A stretch of 64,000 nucleotides of DNA from Bacillus marasmi. Lineage in GTDB: Bacteria; Bacillota; Bacilli; Bacillales; Cytobacillaceae. The stretch lies in assembly GCF_902168435.1 (NCBI RefSeq), contig NZ_LR656170.1, positions 202,720 through 266,719 on the forward strand, written 5' to 3'. This document shows positions 46,621-63,890 of the stretch, piece by piece; positions within the stretch are counted from its first letter, which is position 1, and each line of letters opens with the position of its first letter. The position numbers and the translations under genes are program-made. The notes under the pieces are model-generated. The model was given only the letters and a program-made list of their open reading frames with translations, did no database searches and was not told the origin of the DNA.

Positions 46621-47406
46621 TTGAAAACAATATTGACTATTGTATATGGAATTATATGTATTGCTTTTATCAGTATTAGTCATTTTTTGTGGATTGATAA
46701 GACAACAGCCCTTCAAGCTGAAGAAAAAAATAGCACGCAAAAAAATGCAGAGGTATCAAACGTTAAACAGAATCCAATTGATAGCCTCCTCCCTTTAACT
46801 AAAAATTGGCCCGAAGCAGGTGCTGAGAACTTTAAAAAAGCTGTTGAGAATAATGAAAAGTTCACGATTGTAATTGCCGGCTCAGACGCATTAGGTGGGG
46901 AAACTGGTTGGGCTATGACAACAAAGGCTAAACTACTTGAAGCTTATGGCGAAGAACATATTTCTGTTGAGGTACGTGAATACGATACGAATTCTGAACA
47001 ATTTACGTCTCAAAACAAGCATCTTGAACTTGCAGATTTAAAAGCAGATTTATTATTATTTGAACCGTTTATTCTTAAGAACAATGGAGAAGTTGAGTTA
47101 GTGAATACCCTTGCCAATTTAACAACAACCATTGAGGCAGTTAAAGCGAGCAATCCGGAATGTGTCATTATCGTACAACCAGCAAATCCTATCTATAAAG
47201 CGAAGATTTATCCAACTCAAGTTGCTCAATTAAAAGCATATGCTGATGAATTTAAGCTTACCTTCCTTGATCACTGGGGAATTTGGCCAGACCCGAATAC
47301 TGAAGCAATTAAAGAATATATTACACCTGAGCATTCATTCCCAAATGAACAAGGTCATGAGGTATGGAGCCAATTTGTTAACGCATACTTCATTAATCAA
47401 GAATAA
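46621..47406 (+). CDS. Membrane-anchored SGNH/GDSL-like hydrolase
   Basis: The 261-residue protein has an N-terminal helix (about 3-22), a 50-residue linker and an SGNH-like domain. FTIVIAGSDALGGETGW carries the candidate nucleophile Ser in a block-I position. FPNEQGHEVWSQF near the end carries His with a preceding acidic or polar residue. Such enzymes remove O-acetyl or other esters from wall glycans. The TTG at 46621 has GGAGGT eight bases before it; the frame's earlier TTG at 46606 overlaps that RBS. It is a single gene after a structured leader, with a terminator following. Confidence 0.72.
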   Translation: MKTILTIVYGIICIAFISISHFLWIDKTTALQAEEKNSTQKNAEVSNVKQNPIDSLLPLTKNWPEAGAENFKKAVENNEKFTIVIAGSDALGGETGWAMTTKAKLLEAYGEEHISVEVREYDTNSEQFTSQNKHLELADLKADLLLFEPFILKNNGEVELVNTLANLTTTIEAVKASNPECVIIVQPANPIYKAKIYPTQVAQLKAYADEFKLTFLDHWGIWPDPNTEAIKEYITPEHSFPNEQGHEVWSQFVNAYFINQE

Positions 47407-47439
47407 TAACAAATTATGATCACTTAAAAGATTTTTCAG

Positions 47440-47497
47440 GCACTCCATTCAATTTATTTGATTGGAGTGTTTTCTTTTCTTTTCTTTTCTTTTCTTT
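47440..47497 (+). terminator. Terminator followed by a CTTTT microsatellite
   Basis: CACTCCATTCAA pairs with TTGATTGGAGTG with one mismatch. It is followed by TTTTC repeated about five times, an unusually long T-rich tail. Confidence 0.8.
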
Positions 47498-47647
47498 TGG
47501 ATTTCTATAAATTTCCTGGGGAATTTTCCCGCGAAATGATGAATTAACGCATAATATGATTGAATGTTTCTTTCTTGAGTTATGAATGATGAATATCTTC
47601 TTTCATCAACTGTGATAAACATTATTACATCAAGAATTAGAAAACAA

Positions 47648-47653
47648 TATAAT
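47648..47653 (+). promoter_or_regulatory. Candidate -10 box upstream of the PAS-GGDEF-EAL gene
   Basis: A perfect TATAAT lies about 170 bp before the start, with no convincing -35 at 17 bp. If used, the transcript would run through the palindromic repeat at 47738-47802. Confidence 0.3.
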
Positions 47654-47737
47654 AATGTTATGAATAGAATGGGTATCCATATGGCGTAGTAGGGAAAAAT
47701 ATTCTAGTCCAGTGCGGACACCCCCTAGTACGGCAAC

Positions 47738-47802
47738 GCTTTAATTGGGTGGGGGACTGTCCCCCGGTGCGGTGATGCTTTAATTGGGTGGGGTGCTTCC
47801 CA
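47738..47802. repeat. REP copy 1, core at 47751-47765 (GGGGGACTGTCCCCC)
   Basis: A core GGGGGACTGTCCCCC is flanked by GCTTTAATTGGGTGGGG (47738-47754), which is repeated directly at 47777-47793 next to a decayed second core (GGTGCTTCCC). It lies in the leader of the PAS-GGDEF-EAL gene, ending about 25 bp before its start codon. Confidence 0.75.
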
Positions 47803-47826
47803 CGGGTAGAGGAGGATTTGCTAGTA

Positions 47827-49899
47827 ATGCAACATGATTCTTTTTTTCAAGATCATCAATATTTAAAGACCATATTTGATCATTTAGATTTAGCCTTTTG
47901 GTCAGTGGATTTACTGAATGGAAACATATTTATGTCTAAAGGTGCCGAAACACTGTTAGGCATACCTCGATTAGCCTTTGAAAAAAATCCCGCCATTTTA
48001 AAGGAATTCATTCATCCCGATGATCAATATAAATACGATAAAGTCATGTCTGACCTCTTTAAGGACCAACGAAGTCAACTAGAGTTCCGAATGATTAATC
48101 AAGATGGGGATATTCGTTGGTTAAGGGTACACGCCTCAACCATTTTCAATCCCGACTTAAAGATGAAGCTTCAATATGGAATTATTTTTGATATTACTGA
48201 CTTTATTAATGAACACTCCAATTTAACCTACCAAAACGGCTTTATGCAAAAACTGATTAATGAAGTGAATATCGTTCTATGGTCCTATGACCTCAAGACT
48301 AAAGAAACCTATTATTCACAAAGTGCTGAAGAGCTTTACGGAGTTCCTCTTGAAGATTTCACCAAAAACCCTTCTTTATGGAAGGACGTAATACATCCTG
48401 AGGATGTCACAGAAATTGAAAAAGACGAAAGACTCCTCTCCGGACGCAAAGTAACATGTGAGTACCGAATTATTCGACCGAGTGACGGAGATATTCGATG
48501 GATTGAAGACCGCGCCTTTCCGACAATCGACCAAAATGGACAGGTTACAGCCTTCACTGGTGTAAAAATTGACGTGACTGCAAGAAGAATTTCTGAAGAA
48601 AGAATTAATCAACTCACATTTTTCGATGTACTCACAGGTATCCCGAATAATTATTATCTAGAACAATATTTAAATGAAATTACATTAAGTGATGAACCGC
48701 ATCAAAGCTTTGCATTTTTGCTCATCAATTTTGACCGGCTTAAATTAATTAATGATTCATTAGGGTATCATTTTGGTGATTTACTACTCGTTAATGCAAT
48801 TGAAAGATTAAGGCAGCAACTTGCTCCCACAGATTTACTGTGCAGAATTGTTGGCGATGAATTCGCGATTGTATTAAAGGACGTAACAAGAGAAGATGTT
48901 GAACAAACCTGTCACCGCCTGCTTAAAATATTCGACGAACCATTTTATATTAAAAATAAAGAAATCTACACTTCGATAAGTATTGGAATCAGTGATTTTC
49001 CTGTCACTAATCTGAATCGGAAATACTTAATCAATCAAGCTTATTACGCAATGCTTTTAGCAAAGGAGAACGGAAAAAATACTTATTATTTTTATAATAA
49101 AAAGGATGAAATCAATAAGTACAATATCGAAACGGAAAGCGAATTAAAAAAGGCATTAAAAAACGAGGATTTTGTGCTGCATTTTCAGCCCTTATTTCAT
49201 TTAGTGACTGGAAAATTGACCAGTTATGAGGCCTTGATTCGCTGGAATCACCCGATAAAGGGGTACATCCCCCCTTCAGAATTTATTCCAGTTGCCGAGA
49301 AAACCGATTTAATCGTGGCGCTCGGAGAATGGGTGATGTATGAAGCCTGTAGGCAAAATCAGCAATTTCAAAAGCGTGGCTTCCCCCCTGTTGTCGTATC
49401 TGTCAACGTCTCGACGAGGCAGTTTTACGATACTTATTTTGTAAAAAAAGTGAAGAATGTCCTTCGAAAGACTGGACTTGATCCGCAATATTTAGAGCTT
49501 GAAATTACCGAAAGCATCATGCAAAACATCGAAAAAACAAAGCCGATTATCGAGGAGATTAAGAATCTCGGTGTTAAAATTTCTATTGATGATTTTGGGA
49601 CAGGCTTTTCTTCATTAAGCATTTTAAAGCATCTTCCTTTAGATAAGCTAAAAATTGATAAGTCATTTATTGATGATATTGGCACGAAAAAGGAGCCACT
49701 GGTGAAATCAATAATTGAACTTGGAGTTAATTTAGATATGTCCGTGGTGGCCGAAGGTGTAGAAACGGTGAAACAGGCTGATTTCTTACGGGAAAACAAT
49801 TGCGATATCGGTCAAGGCTATTTGTTTAGCAAACCGGTTCCAAGCGAACAACTAGAAGAAGCGTTGCTGAAAAACTTAAAGCATGGGGCTCAAGATTAG
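47827..49899 (+). CDS. PAS-PAS-GGDEF-EAL protein, probable c-di-GMP phosphodiesterase
   Basis: The 690-residue protein has no membrane segments. Two PAS domains (about 10-125 and 135-265, each ending in a PAC-like IFDITDF or KIDVTARR) are followed by GGDEF at about 270-430 and EAL at about 440-685. The GGDEF signature is IVGDEF, with Val for the first Gly, so cyclase activity is doubtful. The EAL domain is intact: YEALIRW, EITESIM, DDFGTGFSSL, KIDKSF and VVAEGVET. It should hydrolyse c-di-GMP in response to a PAS signal. The ATG at 47827 is 11 bases after AGAGGAGG. A palindromic repeat occupies its leader. Confidence 0.9.
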   Translation: MQHDSFFQDHQYLKTIFDHLDLAFWSVDLLNGNIFMSKGAETLLGIPRLAFEKNPAILKEFIHPDDQYKYDKVMSDLFKDQRSQLEFRMINQDGDIRWLRVHASTIFNPDLKMKLQYGIIFDITDFINEHSNLTYQNGFMQKLINEVNIVLWSYDLKTKETYYSQSAEELYGVPLEDFTKNPSLWKDVIHPEDVTEIEKDERLLSGRKVTCEYRIIRPSDGDIRWIEDRAFPTIDQNGQVTAFTGVKIDVTARRISEERINQLTFFDVLTGIPNNYYLEQYLNEITLSDEPHQSFAFLLINFDRLKLINDSLGYHFGDLLLVNAIERLRQQLAPTDLLCRIVGDEFAIVLKDVTREDVEQTCHRLLKIFDEPFYIKNKEIYTSISIGISDFPVTNLNRKYLINQAYYAMLLAKENGKNTYYFYNKKDEINKYNIETESELKKALKNEDFVLHFQPLFHLVTGKLTSYEALIRWNHPIKGYIPPSEFIPVAEKTDLIVALGEWVMYEACRQNQQFQKRGFPPVVVSVNVSTRQFYDTYFVKKVKNVLRKTGLDPQYLELEITESIMQNIEKTKPIIEEIKNLGVKISIDDFGTGFSSLSILKHLPLDKLKIDKSFIDDIGTKKEPLVKSIIELGVNLDMSVVAEGVETVKQADFLRENNCDIGQGYLFSKPVPSEQLEEALLKNLKHGAQD

Positions 49900-50063
49900 T
49901 ATTGGTTTCGGATTGGGTTAGGGTGATTAAGGCAGATTTTTATGCCATTTTTCAAAGTGTAAATTGGGTAATATTAACAGCTTTTCATTTGAAACCCGCT
50001 TCTGTTAGGAGTAAAATATAGGTGTAAGGTAAGGTAATATTCCATAGGAAGGAGGAATCAAGT

Positions 50064-50495
50064 ATGACCGGCAGATCATTGCGGCGTTTAGATCGCGATT
50101 TAGGTGAGATGTGGGATACTTTCAATGATTTCTTCGGTGATAATTTCCTTACATCTTTTCGCGGTGGTGTTCATCAATTCCGAACAGACATCAAGGATAA
50201 TGGTGATCGATATGTAATCGAGGCCGAAATGCCTGGATTTGACAAAGATGCGATTAACATTGATTATGAAAACAGCTATCTCACCATATCCGCAAAACGA
50301 GAAGCGATCAATAAGGACGAAAAAGAAAACTATATTCGTCAGGAACGTCATTATGGAGAGTTTGTTCGTCGCTTCTTCGTGGAAGATATTGACGATCAAA
50401 ACATTGAAGCTAGCTTTAACAACGGTGTCCTAACCATCATTTGCCCTAAGCTTGCTGTTACACCTCCAGACCGCAAACGAATTGAAATTAACTAA
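50064..50495 (+). CDS. Small heat shock protein, Hsp20 family
   Basis: The 143-residue chaperone has an alpha-crystallin domain of about 90 residues: FRTDIKDNGDRYVIEAEMPGF at its start, ERHYGEFVRRFFV in the middle and the FNNGVLTIICPK motif (A-x-x-x-x-G-V-L type) near the end. The N-terminal arm (FNDFFGDNF) is of the usual length. GGAAGGAGG lies eight bases before the ATG. It is a single gene with a strong terminator. No CIRCE or CtsR site was seen upstream. Confidence 0.93.
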   Translation: MTGRSLRRLDRDLGEMWDTFNDFFGDNFLTSFRGGVHQFRTDIKDNGDRYVIEAEMPGFDKDAINIDYENSYLTISAKREAINKDEKENYIRQERHYGEFVRRFFVEDIDDQNIEASFNNGVLTIICPKLAVTPPDRKRIEIN

Positions 50496-50527
50496 TAATT
50501 TATTAACTTAATTAATACCACCGGACG

Positions 50528-50568
50528 ACCGCATTCGATCTATATTTTTCGAATGCGGTTTTTTTTTG
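50528..50568 (+). terminator. Terminator of hsp20
   Basis: ACCGCATTCGA pairs with TCGAATGCGGT and is followed by nine T. Confidence 0.93.
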
Positions 50569-50817
50569 TTTTTTAAATGTGGTGTTTCCCTCCTCCAATT
50601 CGCAAAGTTTTTGAATTTTATCACAATATTTTTCATAACTATGACAAAGTTCACTTACATTGTTTATCAGATAATTTAAACTAATAGAAAAATGAGAATT
50701 TAATATTCAGAATTCAGGTGAATCTATTCGATAGCATACTTTCAGTCGTGCAACATTACATTAACATTTCCTCTACTGATTAGTCACGGAACTTAATAAT
50801 TTGAGAGGTGTAATATA

Positions 50818-51042
50818 ATGGTTGAATTGTTGAACACTATGGAAAAAGTAAATAATTGTGGGTCTTTCACTCCAATTTTTCTAAACAATCGGCTAAAAGG
50901 CAACAGAACACTAGAATTAAGCAACTACCACGCATCCTCTTCACCGCACCACCGTGGCGGGGGACAGTCCCCCATCGCGCTAAAGCGGGAACGTACTGGG
51001 GGACTGTCCCCCAACGCTTTAACGTGGTTCAGTGGGTCGTAG
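50818..51042 (+). CDS. Possible small ORF running into REP sequence
   Basis: The 74-codon frame has GAGAGGTG eight bases before its ATG, and a + strand terminator follows at 51077. The first 40 codons (MVELLNTMEKVNNCGSF and onward) resemble nothing I know. Codons about 45-70 are simply the REP palindromes read through. It could be a gene whose 3' end was replaced by the REP insertion, or chance. Confidence 0.25.
   Translation: MVELLNTMEKVNNCGSFTPIFLNNRLKGNRTLELSNYHASSSPHHRGGGQSPIALKRERTGGLSPNALTWFSGS
50947..51030. repeat. REP copies 2 and 3 as a pair in opposite orientation
   Basis: Cores GGGGGACAGTCCCCC (50959-50973) and GGGGGACTGTCCCCC (50998-51012) are separated by 24 nt containing GCGCTAAAGCGGGAACG. 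The second is followed by AACGCTTTAACG. The centre bases (A and T) show opposite orientation, the layout of a BIME-like pair. It lies on the 3' side of the transposase gene. Confidence 0.85.
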
Positions 51043-51076
51043 TTGGATAGCGATTGTTTGATAACGTTTTATCCTT

Positions 51077-51110
51077 AACAGGGTCTCATACGGGATCCTG
51101 TTATTATTTT
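51077..51110 (+). terminator. Terminator-like hairpin on the + strand
   Basis: AACAGGGTCTC pairs with GGGATCCTGTT (with G-T pairs) around ATAC, then ATTATTTTT. It ends any + strand transcript reaching past the REP pair. Confidence 0.65.
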
Positions 51111-51199
51111 TGCTTGATAGATTGAATTCCAAGTTGTGCTTGTACTTCAACCCGAATCGGGTAGTCTTCGATCCCCTTTAAGCCAATGCTTGTAATGTA
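51104..51199 (-). pseudogene. Apparent remnant of a yifB/comM (Mg-chelatase-like ATPase) N-terminus
   Basis: Read on the - strand, the frame gives YITSIGLKGIEDYPIRVEVQ followed by AQLGIQSIKQK and a stop. The block with SIGLKGIE-Y-RVEV is the first beta strands of YifB/ComM-type ATPases, usually about 500 residues. Only some 30 codons remain, without start codon or ATPase part. It begins right after the RAYT gene on the same strand, out of frame with it. The match is from memory of the family and short. Confidence 0.42.
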
Positions 51200-51212
51200 G
51201 AGTTGCAAGAAT

Positions 51213-51791
51213 TCATATTTGTATACCTCCATCTTGCTCATTTTCATCTTCTCTTTCGACGAATTCACGATAATTTATGTGAGCAGGTTCAGGAAAAAAG
51301 GAAAAGGTTTTGCTAGTGTCGATATGCGGATTTTCAGATAGCTGGAGATAGGCGGAGTAGCTGCTCCAAGGATAATCCTCTGGTTTGGCAACCATATTGG
51401 CTTCGAGAGGATTGCGGTGGATGTAGCGGCTCACGGTGAGAAAATAGTTTTCTGAAATGATAATTCTTGCGTTGTAACGTCCTTGAAAGACATGACCATC
51501 GACATCGAGTTTTTTGTTTAAGTAAATAGCATAGTGCATATGTAATGTTTTCATGATGTTGGGAATGATGTTTTCCAAAGTGGGGAGCTTTGGCTGTAGT
51601 TGTAGGTGAATGTGGTTTGTCATTAGGCAGTAGGAATGCAGAATAAATGGATACTTTTCGCGGACATCCTCTAGTATTTCGAGATATTTCTGGAAATCCT
51701 TACGTTCATAAAAGATTGGGGCGCGCTTGTTGCCGCGAGCAGTTATATGGAACGGGGCGCCCGGATAGTATTCCCGAGGTTTTCTTGACAT
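51213..51791 (-). CDS. REP-associated tyrosine transposase (RAYT; IS200-like Y1 HUH family)
   Basis: The 192-residue protein has the family's start FHITARGNKRAPIF, the metal-binding H60-I-H62 (YCLMTNHIHLQL), the GHVFQGRYNARI block, RYIHRNP with Tyr123 as candidate catalytic Tyr, and YPWSSYSAYL. HUH Y1 enzymes cut and rejoin single-stranded hairpin DNA. RAYTs are single-copy, usually immobile relatives linked to REP palindromes. No IS200-type end structure was found around it, but REP cores lie on both sides (50947-51030, 51891-51925). GGAGG stands before the ATG. It is the likely source of the spread of the palindrome family in this region. Confidence 0.9.
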   Translation of the reverse strand: MSRKPREYYPGAPFHITARGNKRAPIFYERKDFQKYLEILEDVREKYPFILHSYCLMTNHIHLQLQPKLPTLENIIPNIMKTLHMHYAIYLNKKLDVDGHVFQGRYNARIIISENYFLTVSRYIHRNPLEANMVAKPEDYPWSSYSAYLQLSENPHIDTSKTFSFFPEPAHINYREFVEREDENEQDGGIQI

Positions 51792-51885
51792 GTGGCTTTC
51801 CTCCTTAAATTATTATATAAATATCATAATTTATCAGAGTGATTTCGGTCAATTGATAACCATAGGGACTTATAATGTGCTTCAT

Positions 51886-51926
51886 CGCTTTAGCGGGGTG
51901 GGGGACAGTCCCCCACTGCTTTAGCG
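51886..51926. repeat. REP copy 4, core 51900-51914
   Basis: GGGGGACAGTCCCCC is flanked by CGCTTTAGCGGGGT on the left and ACTGCTTTAGCGCG on the right. The arms are not fully complementary; instead GCTTTAGCG occurs in direct orientation on both sides. It lies between the transposase promoter side and the stop of the PH-domain gene. Confidence 0.85.
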
Positions 51927-51928
51927 CG

Positions 51929-52306
51929 TTACCTTGCTGTGTAGGTGGCTAGGGCTTTTTGGACTTCGAAGATGCTTTTGTCTTTTTTGAATTGCTTAAG
52001 AATAGGCTCTTCCCAACCAGAAATCCAAATTTTTAGTTCAGCATCCAAATCGAAGGTTCCAGCTGTTTCGCAGCTAAAGTGGGTTATGCTTTTATATGGA
52101 ATTGAATGATATTCTACTTTTTTCCCAGTCATTCCTTGCTTGTCGATTAAAATCATTCTTAAGTTTGTAAATACTAATAAATCTCTTACAAGTTTATATG
52201 CTTTTTCGATGTGCTCATTTTCTGTGACAATCATTTCTAATTCTTTTTCTACTGCCTCTGCTTCTACTTCTGAGACATTTCCGATAAATCCGTCAAGTAA
52301 ACCCAT
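51929..52306 (-). CDS. Bacterial PH-domain protein
   Basis: The 125-residue cytosolic protein begins MGLLDGFIGNVSEVE, then VRDLLVFTNLRMILIDKQGMTGKKVEYHSIPYKSI and HFSCETAGTFDLDAELKIWI. This is the bacterial PH-domain (bPH_1, PF08000) pattern often found as single-domain proteins in Bacillus. Its function is unknown. The ATG at 52306 has AAGGAG seven bases before it, so the longer frame from 52351 is not used. It is a single gene with a REP element just after its stop. Confidence 0.85.
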   Translation of the reverse strand: MGLLDGFIGNVSEVEAEAVEKELEMIVTENEHIEKAYKLVRDLLVFTNLRMILIDKQGMTGKKVEYHSIPYKSITHFSCETAGTFDLDAELKIWISGWEEPILKQFKKDKSIFEVQKALATYTAR

Positions 52307-52439
52307 GCTTCTATCTCCTTCGTTTATGTACTTGCCTTTGACATCTGTCATGACACTGTTTCGGACAATGTTATTATAACAAGTGGCTAGGGAAATATCT
52401 GCCTTTTTGTTTTTTGATTAAGCTGTATTAAATTTGAAT

Positions 52440-52694
52440 GTTGATTTCCGTTGCAGACGCGTGCGGTTCATGGGGCTAACTGGGACCCTGTCTAGCTGCA
52501 GTGGCTAGGGGCTCGGGGTCATAAACCAATCCGTCCAGAAGGTAAAAGTCAACCATCCGGCCGGCTCGTCTTATGCCTGTCGCCCCTGGGCAAGCCACTT
52601 CCGCTTTTCGTACTCCTCGGCGCTTTGCGCCTGTGGGGTCTCCCATTCCAGCTACTCCCTTAGGAGTCTACGTGCCTGCAGCGAATATCAACGT
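52440..52694. repeat. Nested inverted-repeat element of Bacillaceae type
   Basis: GC-rich against its AT-rich surroundings. Ends are TTGATTTCCGTTGCAG (from 52441) and the near-complement CTGCAGCGAATATCAA (to 52692). Inside is a second element (about 52485-52612) with CAGTGGCTAGGGGC / GCCCCTGGGCAAGCCACT arms. The right part contains CTCCTCGGCGCTTTGCGCCT. I recall similar modules as dispersed intergenic repeats in Bacillus genomes. No coding frame is plausible. The remaining intergenic sequence 52307-52439 and 52695-52814 shows nothing else clear. Confidence 0.7.
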
Positions 52695-52814
52695 GTCTAA
52701 AAATCATCGCCGCGTATTAAACACAGCCTTTGATTAAGAAACTTGAAAGCTTATTATGATAATTGTAGTATGGATTTATTCGCTTCTCCTCATACTAAAC
52801 AAGAGGTGAGGTCG

Positions 52815-53729
52815 ATGAATTTTAATTGGCTTTTTGCCCTTATGGTATTAGGTCAAACATTAGAAGTGCCAGCAGATAATCTATCGATCAATACGAAAAG
52901 CGAAACGATCTCGGTCGTAAACAGGGCCGATTTTATTTTGCCATTACCCATGCTTCCCTTTTTTAACCTTGATAGATTTGGACAGCTTGAAGAGCAGGTA
53001 GCCCAACAAATTAAAAAAGAGCCCGTTAACGCCGGACTTGATCAGCACGGAAATATTATTGCTGAGAAGCCAGGAGCTCGACTTGATCGAGTAAAATTTA
53101 AAGAACAATTTTATCAATATTTTTATGGATCAGGACCTAAAATGATAGAGGTTCCTATCCAAGATATTTTTCCAAAGGTTGATAGTGAGTTGATTTCTGA
53201 TATTCGCACAGATATGATTGGCCATTATGTAACTTATTATAATTCTCATAACATGGAACGCTCTCATAACATTGCCTTAGCAACAAGTGCACTAAATAAT
53301 CATGTCGTTTTTCCAGGTGAGACGTTTTCTTTTAACAAAGTGGTTGGGAAAAGAACCCCTGAAAAGGGTTATTTATCAGCACCCGTAATTGTGAAGGGTG
53401 AATTAACAGAGGGAATTGGCGGTGGGATTTGCCAGGTTTCTTCGACATTGTATAATGCGGTCGATCAATCTGGTCTCCAAATTGTTGAGCGATATTCGCA
53501 CAGTAAGCGAGTGCCCTATGTGCCAAATGGTCGGGATGCAACAGTGAGCTGGTACGGACCTGATTTTGCGTTCCGAAACTTATATAACCAGCCTATTTTG
53601 ATTCGCGCTTATGCAAATGATGGAAGGATGTTAGTTATGCTATTTTCTTCAGATTCCATTAATTATTATCCACGCAACGTCCCACGAATGTCCGGGGACC
53701 TACCACCAGAAATACCTGCCAACTATTAA
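52815..53729 (+). CDS. VanW-domain exported protein, YoaR-like
   Basis: The 304-residue protein has a weak hydrophobic N-terminus (about 3-12). A middle part of about 110 residues leads to a VanW domain from about 165: FSFNKVVGKRTPEKGYLSAPV, EGIGGGICQVSSTLYNA and YVPNGRDATVSWYGPDF. These motifs are the family core, linked to surface and peptidoglycan-associated functions that remain unclear. GAGGTGAGG lies just before the ATG at 52815. It is a single gene with a terminator overlapping the stop and a REP palindrome behind it. Confidence 0.85.
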   Translation: MNFNWLFALMVLGQTLEVPADNLSINTKSETISVVNRADFILPLPMLPFFNLDRFGQLEEQVAQQIKKEPVNAGLDQHGNIIAEKPGARLDRVKFKEQFYQYFYGSGPKMIEVPIQDIFPKVDSELISDIRTDMIGHYVTYYNSHNMERSHNIALATSALNNHVVFPGETFSFNKVVGKRTPEKGYLSAPVIVKGELTEGIGGGICQVSSTLYNAVDQSGLQIVERYSHSKRVPYVPNGRDATVSWYGPDFAFRNLYNQPILIRAYANDGRMLVMLFSSDSINYYPRNVPRMSGDLPPEIPANY

Positions 53730-53745
53730 AAGTAGGCAGGTATTT
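53711..53745 (+). terminator. Terminator overlapping the end of the VanW-domain gene
   Basis: ATACCTGCC pairs with GGCAGGTAT across the stop codon and is followed by TTTTA. Confidence 0.75.
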
Positions 53746-53797
53746 TAATGCTTTAGTGCAGTGGGGGACAGTCCCCCACTGCACTAAAGCATTAAAA
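53743..53797. repeat. REP copy 5, perfect 55-nt palindrome
   Basis: Arms of 27 nt starting TTTTAATGCTTTAGTGCAGT and continuing GGGGGAC pair fully around a central A at 53770. It lies between convergent genes (VanW-domain +, csp -). Confidence 0.95.
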
Positions 53798-53828
53798 AAC
53801 AGACTTTTATTTAAAAAAGTCTGTTTTA
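53796..53828 (-). terminator. Terminator of the cold-shock gene
   Basis: AAAACAGACTTTT pairs with AAAAGTCTGTTTT, directly next to the REP palindrome. Confidence 0.85.
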
Positions 53829-53835
53829 GGCTTAT

Positions 53836-54036
53836 TTAAGCTTTTTGTACGTTGGCTGCTTGTGGTCCACGTTGGCCTTGTTCTACATCAAAAGTAACTT
53901 CCTGGCCTTCTTCCAATGTCTTGTAGCCCTCAGTTTGAATGGCTGAAAAGTGTACAAATACGTCCTCTCCGCCTTCTCTTTCAATAAAACCAAAACCTTT
54001 TTCACTGTTAAACCATTTTACTTTTCCACGTTCCAT
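53836..54036 (-). CDS. Cold-shock protein (CspA/CspB family)
   Basis: The 66-residue OB-fold RNA/ssDNA-binding protein has [16 protein letters not shown] (RNP1), DVFVHFSAI (RNP2) and [21 protein letters not shown], normal for the family. The ATG at 54036 has AGGAGG seven bases upstream; the open frame extends further but without function. It works as an RNA chaperone. The 240 bp to the next, divergent gene could hold a cold-shock type 5' leader, though no box could be assigned. Confidence 0.95.
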
Positions 54037-54277
54037 TTCATTGCCTCCTAGCATTCACATGTACACAAAAATTCAAATGAATCTTGCTCATTTTATTATG
54101 TCTGTAAATCGGAAATAATATACATAAATGTTATTTTTTATTTTTTACATTTTAAAAACTTTTGGAAAAACATCTTAAAACTTGAATAGCCTATAATATA
54201 CACAATTAGTATGACAACAAATGGTATAATTTATTATGAGTAATTAAAAAACTTTACTTTGAAAGAGGTGAGTAAAA

Positions 54278-54976
54278 ATGACGATAACAGAGATTAAGAA
54301 ACAAGCCCTTAAGGCATTAAAAGGTCAGTGGGGAGTAGCTGCAGCCTTAACGTTAATAATTTTCATCATCAACTCCGTACTCCCGACCATATTTGAGGTA
54401 ATGTTAAGTGGCGGCTGGGAAAATTGGTTTTTGGCAGATCAGCTCCCAATCCAAGCTGAAATCGTTAGTATGATTATCACATTATTGATTATGCCATTAG
54501 CAGTCACTACACTTTGGTTCTTTTTATCATTGGTTCGCTATGAAGGTCCGCAGCTTTTTGATGTTTTTGCAATTTTTACGGATGGGAAAAGATTTTTCAA
54601 ATTAATCGGTACTTCAATTGTAATGGGAATATTCATCGCCCTATGGACACTTTTGCTATTGATTCCAGGTATCATAAAATCAATTTCTTACTCACAAACA
54701 TATTTTCTGATGAAGGACCATCCAGAATATACGGTGTTAGAAGCAATTACCGAGAGCAAAAAGCGGATGAAGGGATATAAGTGGAAATACTTCCTACTGA
54801 ATCTAAGCTTCATTGGCTGGGGAATTCTTTGCTTACTTACATTGGGTATCGGCTTTTTATGGCTATCCCCTTATATCCAAGCTTCCACGGCAACATTCTA
54901 TAACGAGCTAATCCTATCGCAAGAACATAATCAAGAACCTGTACAGGTACTTGAAGATCAAAACTGGGAAGAATAA
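54278..54976 (+). CDS. DUF975 family membrane protein
   Basis: The 232-residue protein has six hydrophobic segments. It begins TITEIKKQALKALKGQWGVAAALTL, the DUF975 signature, and contains SYSQTYFLMKDHPEYTVLEAI with ESKKRMKGYKWKYF, another conserved block. The function of this family is unknown; members are found throughout Firmicutes. GAAAGAGGTG lies before the ATG. It is a single gene convergent with telA, with REP copy 6 in between. Confidence 0.85.
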   Translation: MTITEIKKQALKALKGQWGVAAALTLIIFIINSVLPTIFEVMLSGGWENWFLADQLPIQAEIVSMIITLLIMPLAVTTLWFFLSLVRYEGPQLFDVFAIFTDGKRFFKLIGTSIVMGIFIALWTLLLLIPGIIKSISYSQTYFLMKDHPEYTVLEAITESKKRMKGYKWKYFLLNLSFIGWGILCLLTLGIGFLWLSPYIQASTATFYNELILSQEHNQEPVQVLEDQNWEE

Positions 54977-54981
54977 CGAAC

Positions 54982-55034
54982 TTTAACACAGTAAAGCGGT
55001 GGAGGACAGTCCCCCACCGCTTTACTGTGTTAAA
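54982..55034. repeat. REP copy 6, 53-nt palindrome
   Basis: TTTAACACAGTAAAGCGGT and its complement flank GGAGGACAGTCCCCC; one mismatch in the core (A opposite C). It sits just between the stops of the DUF975 gene (+) and telA (-) and may act as terminator for both. Confidence 0.93.
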
Positions 55035-55041
55035 TTATAAA

Positions 55042-56229
55042 TTATTTGTCTTTGATTTCGAGTAGTTTTAGTCTTAGTTCGTTTTCCATTACGGCCAGCT
55101 CTTGTTCAGCTGCACGGCGCTTGTTGCGGCCTTCCTCTTGAATACGAAGCGTTTCTTCTAGTGTTGAGATCAAGTTGGATTGGGTTGTTTTTAACGTCTC
55201 AATATCTACTAAACCACGCTCATTTTCTTTTGCAGTCTCAATTGTATTCGTTTTAAGCATTTCGGAGTTTTTCAACAGCAGCTCATTCGTTGTTTTCGAA
55301 ACCTGCTTTTGCGCTTCGACGGCATGACGCTGGCGAAGTAAGGTTAAAGCAATCGCCACTTGGTTTTTCCATAATGGAATTGCTGTTACGATTGAGGATT
55401 GAATTTTTTCAACCAAAGCTTGGTTCGTATTTTGAATCAAACGAATTTGCGGCGCACTTTGAATTGTTATTTCCCGACTGAGTTTCAAATCGTACAAGCG
55501 TTTCTCAAGACGGTCGGCAAATTGAATCATATCGTTGACTTCCTGAAACTTCATTTGGTCCTGTGAAGCCTCTGCCGCTTTTTTCATCGCTGGAATTGTT
55601 TTTTCATTAAGTTCCTCGAGCTTAATTTCCCCTGCCGCTATATACACATTTAATGCATGAAAATAATCCTTATTTGTCTCATAAAGTTTTTCAAGCATGC
55701 CAATATCAGATAGAAGTACATTCTTACTTCGGTCTAACTTCACGCTAATGCGATCGATTTGAGCACTAGTTTTCTGATATTTGGAAAGCACCTCTTGTAT
55801 CGAGCCGGAAATTTTCCCGAACATCCGTGAAAAGAAAGATGGCTTTTCCTTGAGCTCGTCCGGACTAATATCATTAAGCCGCTTCATGAGATCGTTGATG
55901 ATGTCACCAACTTCTCCGACATCCTTTTTTTGGACATGCTCAAGCATTGTATGTGAAAAAGTTAGCAGCTTACTTTGAGCCTGTGTTCCGTAAAGAATCA
56001 TCGATTGATGGTTTTTCGGGTCAATTTGCTGGGCAAGCTGAAATGCCTTTTCACGATTTTCGGCTGGGATTACGTCGATTAGTTTCACCGGCTTATTATC
56101 ATTATTAACCTTTTGCATTGCCATTGGATCTGCAACTAAGACATCTGTCTTGTCACCGAACGGATTGGCAAGAATATCATCTAGTACATTGTCAGTTTGT
56201 TTGAGTAAATCTGGTTCTTTATCACTCAT
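55042..56229 (-). CDS. TelA-family protein (YaaN-like)
   Basis: The 395-residue soluble, mostly helical protein has no membrane segments. Typical stretches are [60 protein letters not shown] and [17 protein letters not shown], as in B. subtilis YaaN and tellurite/toxic-anion resistance TelA. The role is unclear; the family is linked to envelope stress and resistance to toxic anions and antimicrobial peptides. It overlaps the XpaC-like gene by 4 nt (ATGA), so the two are translationally coupled as in B. subtilis xpaC-yaaN. Confidence 0.92.
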
Positions 56230-56885
56230 TTTTTCAACCTGCTTTCTTCTAGAGATTTAACATCCTTCATGTTTTTGATTGAATGCTTGGCAACATCCAC
56301 TTCAAAATTCAAGTGATCAATATCATCGGAAAGGACAACATATAGGTCTTTTTCAATTGTTTTTGTTAATTCATTGAGCGTGTGCCTTGTATCGTGCAGG
56401 GTTTGATTGAGCTCAATATTTTTCTTGGGCTGTGATGAAAGCAATGCGTATTTTTCCGTGATTTCAACAAGTGAATCAAGGTGTGAAAAATAAAACTGTT
56501 CTGCTTTATAAAAGCGCTTCGGCTCTTTCTTTGTTAACTTGTAAATTTGTCTTGTTATTTTTGCAATTTCAATTCTTTGCTTAAAAGATGGAATTTCGCG
56601 AATCATGAATGCTGCCTTATTCAATCGATTAATTTTTTGCTTCGCTTCTTCTAAATTCTGCTTTATATAGCGATATTCCTTTCGAGACAGCTGGTTTTTC
56701 TTTAGGAAACGAGACTTCATTACCATTGTAACCAATGAAAAAGTTAGGAAACCACCAATAAATGAAATTCCTGAAGATGGCCAAAAGGCATGGTCCGTGA
56801 TGGCAAAAAAACTAATTAACCATATACTTACAGCTACTGGAATTGTAACGAACGTTCCAACCAGAAAAGAAATGAATGCGTTCAT
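56226..56885 (-). CDS. XpaC-like membrane protein
   Basis: The 219-residue protein has two N-terminal helices (about 2-25 and 38-58). A coiled helical cytosolic part of about 150 residues follows ([27 protein letters not shown] and so on). It resembles B. subtilis XpaC (5-bromo-4-chloroindolyl phosphate hydrolysis protein family, a name from an old assay). The ATG at 56885 has CAGGAGTCG upstream; the longer frame to 56996 is not supported. It is the first gene of the xpaC-telA operon. Confidence 0.85.
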
Positions 56886-57292
56886 ATTATATCGACTCCT
56901 GACTTTTATCCTTACTATTATACGAACAAAGAAGTACAAGGTTTCATAATTTCTTCTTATATGTTCAGAATACACCATTGCCTGAAATTTTCCCATAGAC
57001 TACAACTGTAAAAAAAAATACGACCTGAGACCTATTTATTTTAACGCAGTAAAGCAGTGGGGGACAGTCCCCCACTGCTTTACTGCGTTAAAGTCTGTTT
57101 TTCTTTAAATATCATTTCTGCTATCGAAATAAGATTTGTAGTGTAAAACATGTGTATATAAAATTGGAACACATGTATATTTCCTGTTTGTCTGCATAAA
57201 ACTATGGTTACAATTTTCCTACTAACTATTATTTTCAACATTCCATCTATCTACTACCATTACAGACTATACAAAGCTGAGGTGCATCATGT
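56886..57292. other. 407-bp divergent intergenic region
   Basis: This region lies between xpaC (-) and the ger operon (+). Apart from REP copy 7 (57040-57092) the sequence is AT-rich. A sigma-G promoter is expected before a ger operon, but no pair of boxes with correct spacing could be assigned with confidence. Confidence 0.5.
57040..57092. repeat. REP copy 7, perfect 53-nt palindrome
   Basis: TTTAACGCAGTAAAGCAGT and its exact complement flank GGGGGACAGTCCCCC, centre A at 57066. Unlike copies 5 and 6 it lies between divergent genes. Confidence 0.95.
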
Positions 57293-58978
57293 TTGTTTAC
57301 TTGGTTGAAGAAATCAGCGCGGCATCTATTCCGGAGGGCAATACATGTTGAATCAAATACAAATTCAAATACAAATTCAAACACCGACAATCTTATTAAT
57401 CAACGTAATGGATTTAATCAATCCGACTCTAGTTTAACTACTAATAATAACAGAGCGAATAATCATTTTCACAACTATAAAAAGGTGAACCGGACACTTA
57501 ACGAGAATAGGAAATTTCTAGAAACCACTTTAGGAAATAATTCTGGAATTATTAATAGAAGCTTCCAAGTAGGCGAAAACGCTTATTCCTCAGGTTTATT
57601 ATTTGCAGTTTCTGGTATGGTCGAAACGACTGTGATTAATGAAAATGTGCTTGGGCCGCTGATGAAAATGGCAGAGCCACCGGCTAACCTACATAAATCC
57701 CTGCTCGTCTATTTAAAGGAATCTGTCCTTTCTGTTGCTGAAATTGATTTAATAGACAACCTCCACCAAATCGTCAATGAGCTGTTTACAGGTAAAATTG
57801 TTCTATTTGTTGAAGGCGAGGAAACCGCACTTATCATAAATGCTCAAGCATGGGAAATGCGGGGAATCGAGCAGCCGATTACGGAAACGGTGATTCGAGG
57901 TCCACGAGATTCCTTTACTGAAGATATATCTACCAATCTTACCTTACTGCGCAGAAGAATTAGAAATCCTAACTTGCGCTGCGAATCGTTACTGCTCGGG
58001 AAACAAAGCAACACGAAGGTCGTTATTGCCTACATAGACGGAATTGTCAATAAAGAAGTTTTAAAGGAGGTATACACTAGATTAGAAAATATAAAGGTTG
58101 ATGCTATTCTAGAGTCCGGTTATATCGAACAATATATCGAGGACGCTCCCTTCAGTATTTTTCCAACGGTGGGAAATCAAGAAAAGCCAGATATTGTGGC
58201 GGCCCAGCTCCTTGAAGGCAGAGTATCCATTTTTGTAGACGGCACGCCAATCGTCTTAACGGTGCCCTACCTATTAATTAATCATTTCCAGGTTTCCGAG
58301 GATTACTTTTCAAGGCCCTATTATTCAAACTTTGTCAGGATTTTACGAGTAATCAGCTTTTTTATTTCAGTTCTGCTCCCAGGAGTGTTCGTTGCAATTC
58401 AATATTTTCATCCAATCCTTATTCCTTTTTCACTTTTAGTAAAATTTTTCATTACCCGCGCGAACGTTCCATTTCAGCTTTATGTTGAAATGATTCTGAT
58501 GCTCATTATCTTTGAAATCATTCGTGAATCGGGATTAAGAATGCCCAAGCCCGTTGGACAAGCAGTCAGCCTCGTCGGCGCACTGATTTTAGGGGAAGCA
58601 GCCGTCTCGGCTGGTTTAGTCGGGATTCCAGTTGTTGTTACCGTCGCCTTAGTGGGAATCTCTTCATTTCCAGTTAACTCACTATCGGAGCCAATTAGCC
58701 TATTAAGAATCGCATTTGTGGTTGCGGGAGCGACGTTTGGCTTATTCGGCATACTGATGCTTGGCATGATTGTTGTCAGTCACCTCGCTTCGCTGAGATC
58801 GTTTGGTGTTCCATTTACTGCTCCACTTTTTCCAATAAAAATCAGCGACTGGATCGACGGTATCATTCGCATTCCGCTTTGGCTCATGACAAATCGCCCA
58901 GCTACAATAGGCTCAGCTAATAGAACAAAACAAAAGTTTGGAGGTCTTTCCGGTGAAGGAAAACGGGGAAAAGAATAA
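57293..58978 (+). CDS. Spore germinant receptor A subunit (GerAA/GerKA family)
   Basis: The 561-residue protein has a hydrophilic N-terminal domain of about 350 residues and then about five helices. Family marks are RGPRDSFTEDISTNLTLLRRRI, LESGYIEQYIEDAPFSIFPT, RPYYSNFVRILR and RESGLRMPKPVGQAVSLVGALILGEAAV. It forms the germinant receptor in the spore inner membrane with B and C subunits. The TTG start at 57293 has GAGGTG seven bases upstream; an overlapping ATG at 57289 is in another frame. The N-terminus has a low-complexity NTNSNTNSNTDN stretch from a 12-bp DNA repeat. It is the first gene of an A-C-B operon. Confidence 0.93.
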   Translation: MFTWLKKSARHLFRRAIHVESNTNSNTNSNTDNLINQRNGFNQSDSSLTTNNNRANNHFHNYKKVNRTLNENRKFLETTLGNNSGIINRSFQVGENAYSSGLLFAVSGMVETTVINENVLGPLMKMAEPPANLHKSLLVYLKESVLSVAEIDLIDNLHQIVNELFTGKIVLFVEGEETALIINAQAWEMRGIEQPITETVIRGPRDSFTEDISTNLTLLRRRIRNPNLRCESLLLGKQSNTKVVIAYIDGIVNKEVLKEVYTRLENIKVDAILESGYIEQYIEDAPFSIFPTVGNQEKPDIVAAQLLEGRVSIFVDGTPIVLTVPYLLINHFQVSEDYFSRPYYSNFVRILRVISFFISVLLPGVFVAIQYFHPILIPFSLLVKFFITRANVPFQLYVEMILMLIIFEIIRESGLRMPKPVGQAVSLVGALILGEAAVSAGLVGIPVVVTVALVGISSFPVNSLSEPISLLRIAFVVAGATFGLFGILMLGMIVVSHLASLRSFGVPFTAPLFPIKISDWIDGIIRIPLWLMTNRPATIGSANRTKQKFGGLSGEGKRGKE

Positions 58979-62839: not shown

Positions 62840-63120
62840 AAAAGCCAACGACGGATTGCTTATTTGCTTTCACTTCGCAGGCAGTTTTTATTCAACCGCA
62901 TCAAACCTTCTCCATGAAGATAGCTCAACACGCAATAGCCGTATTTGTAATGTTATGGCTCTTGCGTGACAGTTCTGCCCCTTTCGGAAGCAGCCCCAGC
63001 TCGTCTTGGTTAGAGATTTTGGACAAGCTTCGGCGATTTTTCCTTTTAGGTAACTTCATTGATGTCTCTCCATCTCCATTACCTTACTTATAAAAATCGC
63101 GACCTCTACCTCATCGGTTA
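62840..63120 (-). ncRNA. Lysine riboswitch (L box) with terminator
   Basis: On the - strand the leader has GATGAGGTAGAGGTCGCGA (5' part, near 63117-63099), then AAAAATCGCCGAAGC, CTGGGGCTGC, and TTGAGCTATCTTCATGGAG. These are in the same order as in the B. subtilis lysC L box (AGAGGTGCGA, GTCGCCGAAGC, GGCTATCTC). An expression-platform hairpin (GCCTGCGA / TCGTTGGC followed by TTTTTT, about 62840-62885) lies before the permease RBS. Exact aptamer ends are estimates. Confidence 0.85.
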
Positions 63121-63220: not shown

Positions 63221-63273
63221 TTTAACACAGTAAAGCGATGGGGGCCTGTCCCCCATCGCTTTACTGTGTTAAA
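63221..63273. repeat. REP copy 8, 53-nt palindrome
   Basis: TTTAACACAGTAAAGCGAT and its complement flank GGGGGCCTGTCCCCC; one core mismatch, centre T at 63247. It follows the stop of the DUF1232 gene by 10 bp and probably terminates it. Confidence 0.94.
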
Positions 63274-63851: not shown

Positions 63852-63890
63852 CACGTTAAAGGAGTGGGGGACTGTCCCACTAGCGTTGCA
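63852..63890. repeat. REP copy 9, decayed
   Basis: The core GTGGGGGACTGTCCCAC (63864-63880) has lost two C on the right. The flanks GCACGTTAAAGGA and TAGCGTTGCACG keep only partial complementarity. Confidence 0.65.

Follow-up and report, generated by a model that had tools for sequence, protein, structure and literature searches.

A single-copy HUH-Y1 transposase gene of Bacillus marasmi and a dispersed family of hairpins that probably form a REP/RAYT-type system of Bacillaceae

We analyzed a window of 64,000 nucleotides of the Bacillus marasmi genome (the whole stretch of DNA presented here) and found a transposase gene of the HUH-Y1 type among copies of a palindromic hairpin with the core GGGGGACWGTCCCCC. 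We propose that the two probably form a REP/RAYT-type system of Bacillaceae, in which one immobile transposase acts in trans on a dispersed hairpin family. The palindromes are associated with the gene in their genomic abundance and in their position beside it, they form hairpins whose arms carry compensatory differences, and they occur as dimers of fixed pitch and lie at the ends of genes; the transposase gene itself is under purifying selection. Moreover, the letters of the core change together with the transposase across relatives, which suggests that the protein recognizes and spreads the palindrome. The features of the window are the following:

47731 to 47785 (limits approximate), no strand: dispersed REP copy with imperfect arms, core at 47751-47765
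50939 to 51032 (outer limits approximate), no strand: REPIN-like dimer of REPs on the 3' side of the transposase gene, cores at 50959-50973 and 50998-51012, pitch 39 bp
51213 to 51791, minus strand: RAYT-like HUH-Y1 transposase gene, 192 aa, with H60-I-H62, Y123-IHR-NP and W142-SSY
51880 to 51934 (limits approximate), no strand: REP 5' of the transposase gene, core at 51900-51914, less perfect arms, z -3.6
51929 to 52351, minus strand: bacterial PH-domain (bPH) gene, its TAA stop inside the outer arm of the REP with the core at 51900
53743 to 53797, no strand: dispersed REP copy, core at 53763-53777, 26-pair hairpin, z -10.9
55002 to 55014, no strand: degenerate core GAGGACAGTCCCC, one mismatch to the inner 13 bases
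57040 to 57092, no strand: dispersed REP copy, core at 57059-57073, 25-pair hairpin, z -12.2
63241 to 63253, no strand: variant core GGGGCCTGTCCCC, one mismatch to the inner 13 bases
63867 to 63879, no strand: degenerate core GGGGACTGTCCCA, one mismatch to the inner 13 bases

The initial annotation, made from the letters of the window, had described a 192-residue HUH Y1 protein, and our searches agree with it. The encoded protein matches Pfam Y1_Tnp (PF01797) at 44.2 bits as its sole Pfam domain, and H60, H62, Y123, N127, P128, S143 and S144 are invariant in a 47-sequence alignment of the window protein and 46 relatives. It bears the class 2 RAYT signature Y-x-x-x-NP together with the HUH motif and one catalytic Tyr. 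On the NCBIfam model NF047646 (REP-associated tyrosine transposase) it scores 75.1 bits, under the cut-off of 80, and two of seven more orthologues and paralogues scanned pass this model (L010 with 83.1 and L006 with 81.2). No IS200 model matched the window protein at 1e-3, and the Pfam domain scan found no C-terminal helix-turn-helix in it. In a PDB sequence search with E up to 0.01, the only match was E. coli TnpA-REP (4er8; E 2.3e-5, profile positions 1-143). The gene is single-copy, vertically inherited and under purifying selection: the only other match in its own genome is 45% identical, orthologues of 70-76% identity (70% in G001) are found in all four other genomes of the genus that we compared (G001-G004), and, of 10 congener pairs, the four with unsaturated dS give a dN/dS of 0.08-0.12, rough values at a dS of 1.3-2.4. 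The neighborhood is also shared in part. In G002, a gene that we read as VanW-like lies together with the bPH gene on one side of the transposase gene, and a partial HSP20 match and a gene that we read as GGDEF lie on its opposite side. In G003, the VanW-like and bPH genes adjoin the transposase gene, and in G001 both are within 3-5 kb of it.

The nine-core palindrome family that the initial annotation had assigned to this window consists of six exact copies of GGGGGACWGTCCCCC (starting at 47751, 50959, 50998, 51900, 53763 and 57059) and the three one-mismatch relatives of the inner 13 bases, and no exact copy appeared in 100 dinucleotide shuffles. Its distances to the gene were likewise accurate, with cores 201-254 bp beyond the 3' end and 109 bp ahead of the 5' end. 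The 3' pair had further been called oppositely oriented; it is indeed a pair, and its members fold together (z -5.2), but the core differs from its reverse complement in nothing but the central base, so that opposite orientation here means only A versus T at the center. Single-stranded DNA folds at four sites of the window, with z-scores from -3.6 to -12.2, and the G002 gene (L007), too, is followed on its 3' side by a dimer of 39-bp pitch. At gathering thresholds, an Rfam scan of the window matched no REP and gave a single hit elsewhere, a lysine riboswitch (RF00168, 109 bits) at 62913-63116 on the minus strand.

The genome-wide count that the initial annotation had called for gave 61 exact GGGGGACWGTCCCCC cores in the 4.64-Mb genome (G000) and none for the reversed control pattern. 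We examined 51 of the 61 elements with their surroundings, and these 51 cores are the centers of hairpins of ~55 bp. Among the 38 elements without a second exact core within 110 bp, the conserved part extends ~20 nt to either side of the core; the outward arm consensus is ACYGCKTTAMWGYGTTAAAG, which, read inwards, is made of two 8-nt modules NNTAAMGC. The arms of an element match each other: 572 of 760 cells pair, compared with 470 (sd 10.6, maximum 510) when arms are permuted between elements (10,000 permutations), and pairing is perfect over 37 bp in 20 of the 38. In G000, exact cores separated by less than 200 bp form seven neighboring pairs, all with a pitch of 39 bp; the core is too symmetric to show inversion within these dimers. 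In G001, which has the core GGGGTCAGGCACC instead, all 11 close pairs of exact cores are arranged -/+; the pitch is 39 bp in eight of these pairs, and the other three have 38, 35 and 31. GT immediately precedes the first Gs of the core, a potential GTGG, in 55/102 arms in G000, 16/54 in G003 and 12/54 in G001, and GT[AG]G occurs at either foot of 46 of 124 gene-flanking cores. A GTGG foot is thus possible for part of the elements and is not a conserved feature.

With regard to genomic position, a simple ORF rule (no gene caller) placed 49 of the 51 elements. Nearly all of these (47/49) are extragenic and 25/49 lie between convergent genes, while 81% of random positions in the same stretches fall inside ORFs (19% extragenic) and 4% in convergent gaps. 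In G000, at 20 of 44 facing gene ends (ORFs of 90 aa or more, within 60 nt of an element), the stop codon is a TAA of the element itself, at a distance of exactly 6 or 14 nt from the core. This involves 18 of the 51 elements, and several genes therefore end in arm-encoded residues (LTQ, ALQ, TLPQ, VTH or FTH). Such stops were found at 5 of 16 facing ends in G003 (ORFs of 60 aa or more) and at 0 of 51 in G001, whose arms are different. As an ORF that enters an arm usually stops there, what counts is the location of the element, right where the gene ends. For the bPH gene, a relative that has no REP at this end carries a TAA at the aligned place (by eye), which would fit insertion at a TAA.

Across the family, we matched a homologue of the transposase in 146 of 193 genomes, leaving 47 without. 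The exact core GGGGGACWGTCCCCC occurs in 14 of the 193, two of which hold a single copy, and all 14 have a homologue; GGGGTCWGACCCC, the core of a second type, occurs in 80. The initial annotation had set one outcome against its own reading, namely palindromes equally common in relatives that lack the gene, and this is not what we found: GGGGGACWGTCCCCC is present in 0 of the 47 genomes without a homologue, and the general frame GGKGNCWGNCMCC has a median count of 88.5 in clade members (n=100; best E up to 1e-44, a limit set by us), 21.5 in genomes with a weaker homologue only (n=46) and 4 in those with none (n=47). Clade members differ from genomes without a homologue at a Mann-Whitney value of 5e-15, and when clade membership was permuted within genera the observed value was reached in 0 of 5000 permutations. 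There are exceptions on both sides. Fewer than 10 general cores are found in 5 of the 100 clade genomes, and at least 30 in 18 of the 46 weaker-homologue genomes and in 8 of the 47 without a homologue (G027 with 66, G033 39, G034 32, G052 35, G062 30, G135 200, G147 185 and G191 39). A second query with E up to 1 in these eight and five more genomes yielded matches in 4 of 13, all of them weak and partial (best E 9e-4), and no clear transposase in the eight, G135 and G147 included. In these core-rich genomes, the gene may have been lost and the repeats left behind.

The association is also local. We scanned 95 loci, nearly all of them best-scoring homologue matches (we omitted weaker matches as well as the fragments L013 and L016), and classified 94 after dropping a duplicate (L040 = L045). 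A core of the frame GGKGNCNGNCMCC lies within 700 bp at 76 of the 94 loci and at 73 of the 89 whose match spans 160 aa or more, compared with 0-1 of 89 in 20 runs with dinucleotide-shuffled flanks; 16 of the 89 have no such core nearby. Of a set of 80 named loci, 65 were taken first (second copies and near-duplicates omitted) and 36 of these had a GGKGNCNGNCMCC-frame core, and with a uniform gene end the core was found at 45 of all 80; some of the remaining named loci have other palindromes, such as the GGTACC-containing ones in Halanaerobium and Bacillus dakarensis. The outer letters of the core follow the protein: on a quick protein tree, the outer type (31 GGGG, 39 GGTG, 6 mixed) changes 7 times, compared with a mean of 29 and a minimum of 22 in 200 label shuffles. 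The type at the gene also agrees with the type in the genome. In the 81 genomes whose flanks we examined, all 10 with a gene flanked by type A (GGGGACWGTCCCC) are rich in the type A 15-mer (17-89 copies), and none of the 13 with a gene flanked by type B (GGGGTCWGACCCC) has any type A. Among the 58 with neither flank type, two are rich in GGGGGACWGTCCCCC (G003 and G104, which have near variants as flanks) and four have at least 10 copies of GGGGTCWGACCCC. Four genomes (G000, G002, G122 and G154) have a gene of the GGGG type together with one of the GGTG type. Those of G122 and G154 fall within the large clades of their respective core types; the GGTG gene of G000 and G002, by position on the tree, is on a long branch apart from these. 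G000 has 90 cores of the GGTG type, of which 11 surround the paralogue at C4:4519 within the first 17 kb of contig C4.

Within the genus, the counts of GGGGGACWGTCCCCC in G000-G004 are 61, 0, 89, 35 and 39. Instead of GGGGGACWGTCCCCC, G001 holds 67 exact copies of GGGGTCAGGCACC, largely in 39-bp dimers, and its four congeners have 0-1 matches to GGGGTCAGGCACC even with one mismatch. Ten REP-ended genes had a blast match in the G003 or G001 stretches, and we compared eight by eye, without L110|5111 and without L117|4941, for which the match was fragmentary. The REP is present in G003 at four of five compared ends (cases 2, 3, 7 and 8) and absent at one (case 1); at the six ends compared with G001, three have none (cases 2, 5 and 8) and three have a REP of the G001 type (cases 3, 4 and 6). 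Repeats thus come and go, and some gene ends hold different types in different species. This presence and absence is seen at eight gene ends and gives no direct view of movement, and since the G003 and G001 stretches were chosen because they hold REPs, the sample is not neutral. Along the 4.8-Mb contig G001:C1, 60 of the 67 cores fall into one half of the chromosome, the one closest to the end with an ORF (at 571) that we take, by reading, to be dnaA-like; after merging neighbors, the counts are 43/47 (within 2 kb) and 12/16 (within 50 kb). The cores of G003 are bunched similarly along its contig, whose origin was not located.

Could the palindromes have another function, with their nearness to the transposase being incidental? 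As bidirectional terminators or stabilizers of mRNA 3' ends, they would be kept by selection, and both their extragenic placement and their frequency between convergent genes are what one would expect of these; at two gene ends (cases 1 and 5), a relative even has a stem with a T-rich tail in the place of the REP (by eye). However, T-rich tails are hardly commoner beside the elements (24 of 76 arms) than further out (19 of 76), a terminator scan of positions 47000-58000 lists no REP, and selection of this kind predicts neither cores beside transposase genes nor a core type that tracks the protein clade. We consider this explanation unlikely, and the tails and the scan lead us to reject plain intrinsic terminators as a full account. 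It is less likely still that palindromes and protein are merely co-inherited, such that the agreement between core and clade reflects shared ancestry without a working link. This idea draws on the small number of changes in outer type: a 161-row tree with 100 labeled rows has 5 changes between GGGG and GGTG and 3 well supported independent pairs. Against it, paralogues within one genome bear different cores, the cores adjoin the gene itself, and counts track the presence of the gene within genera.

The least probable of these alternatives, in our view, is that the transposase and its flanking palindromes make up an autonomous unit, IS200-like or a TIRtron, with the scattered palindromes as solo remnants. 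The palindromes do lie on both sides of the gene, and the TIR motif of TIRtrons, GGGGWSAS, fits both GGGGACAG and GGGGTCAG. Yet such a unit is at odds with the one gene copy in the genome, with neighbors that are common to G002 and partly to G003 and G001, and with a Y-x-x-x-NP signature that is not the Y-x-x-x-Q of IS200; we reject an autonomous insertion sequence on the grounds of the single copy and the conserved neighborhood. For the REP/RAYT-type system that we favor, we envisage the following mechanism. A vertically inherited, single-strand HUH-Y1 transposase would act in trans on GGGGGACWGTCCCCC hairpins with arms of ~20 nt, recognizing them as folded single strands at times when the DNA is single-stranded. 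It would nick near the foot of the hairpin and then join, copy or move it to new sites, with a preference for stop codons or the positions right behind them, and each transposase clade would serve its own core type. Binding, strand choice, nicking, transposition and the stop-codon target are thus all predicted activities of a putative REP transposase, modeled in part on TnpA-REP, which, in the available text on that enzyme, binds and cleaves single-stranded REP in a strand-specific manner (PMC8266576).

Compared with known systems, our findings support a system that works like a REP/RAYT pair, with class 2 Y1 features, dispersed dimers and single-copy inheritance. As in the REPtrons, BIMEs and REPINs of enterobacteria and Pseudomonas, a single conserved Y1 gene is flanked by extragenic hairpins, dimers have a fixed pitch, and elements at gene ends supply stop codons, which are TAG there (GTAG REPs are known to do so, according to the available text of PMC3733652) and TAA here. 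Unlike those systems, the elements have no conserved GT[AG]G foot and have long covarying arms built of the 8-nt modules. Moreover, of the GTAG-contact residues that Quentin et al. name in the available text of PMC6006769, only Q95 is kept: W94, E100, H101 and R104 of E. coli TnpA-REP, the one PDB relative, align by eye with F102, A108, R109 and I112 of the window protein. We rejected a canonical RAYT with a GT[AG]G foot on these grounds; the unconserved foot and the NF047646 score below the cut-off mean that this is not a canonical RAYT. The initial reading of a Bacillaceae RAYT is supported by the genome-level association of repeats and gene, qualified by this departure from the canonical type. 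With IS200/IS605 the protein shares the Y1 family; it is unrepeated in the genome, matches no IS200 model at 1e-3 and has the class 2 signature Y-x-x-x-NP as opposed to Y-x-x-x-Q in IS200 (available text of PMC6006769).

By the GGGGWSAS motif, the system is nearest to the TIRYT group, whose helix-turn-helix tail the window protein is without. TIRYTs and TIRtrons have GGGGWSAS repeats that occur in the genome as dimers and clusters (available text of PMC3733652); likewise, the window protein is an HUH-Y1 protein with Y-x-x-x-NP, the motif is present as GGGGACAG at the window gene and as GGGGTCAG at relatives, and the repeats are found in dimers and clusters. The TIRYT/TIRtron of Di Nocera et al. 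2013 probably corresponds to subclass 2.1 of Quentin et al. 2018; 20 of 26 TIRYTs fall in that subclass and all 20 are said to have a C-terminal helix-turn-helix (available text of PMC6006769). The GGTG-type cores found here do not fit GGGGWSAS. Repeat numbers, furthermore, track the gene here, whereas Di Nocera et al. 2013 report no obvious correlation between such genes and repeats (available text of PMC3733652) and Quentin et al. 2018 no REP-like sequences near subclass 2.1 genes (available text of PMC6006769). The word Firmicutes does not occur in the available main text of either paper. Among the matches listed in the open-access literature, we found no Bacillaceae system of this kind, which is not a claim that none is in print, and a search by core sequence listed no match relevant by title.

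Whether RAYT-type proteins do drive REP populations, and by what means they select them, is still largely inferred. The present dataset offers ~100 transposases with a matching adjacent hairpin (76 loci and 38 further ones, some of these outside the family), and the paralogue pairs within one cell, together with a congener in which protein and repeat have both changed, provide naturally occurring cases in which to examine how REPs are recognized, how their targets are chosen and how they turn over. Residue 104 is G in 41 of 49 GGGG-core genes and in 1 of 51 GGTG-core genes, and the GGGG-type relatives L074, L079 and L093 carry D-K. One possibility, which we hold to be doubtful, is that a two-residue switch (Q103-G104 for GGGG..CCCC, mostly E/D-K for GGTG..CACC) sets the outer base pair of the hairpin, and that, once specificity changes, the new repeat type displaces the entire old population and also takes over gene ends that the old type had held. 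Residues 103-104 correspond in position to Q95 of E. coli TnpA-REP, a reported contact of the GTAG foot. With 3 independent pairs, a sign test has no power, and we treat the residue-104 code as a lead and not as an established result. If true, the switch would make this a Firmicutes branch in which the specificity of the protein can be read from its sequence.

In addition, we made several minor observations on the paralogues and their repeats. The second, GGTG-type REP population of the B. marasmi genome is bunched at C4:2017-16782 around the 45% identical transposase gene (L006). On contig C37 of the same genome, three GGGGTCWGACCCC cores at 91336, 91682 and 92028 follow each other in exact 346-bp steps, perhaps inside a tandem repeat. 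The G002 homologues L015 and L014, of 254 and 262 aa, have helix-turn-helix-like tails; L014 passes the HTH_23 cut-off (25.4 versus 24.6), and the helix-turn-helix matches of L015 are sub-threshold only. Two copies of GGGACAGTGAACCTGTCCC, 41 bp apart, adjoin L015 (L015:2314-2373) and perhaps belong to another repeat family.
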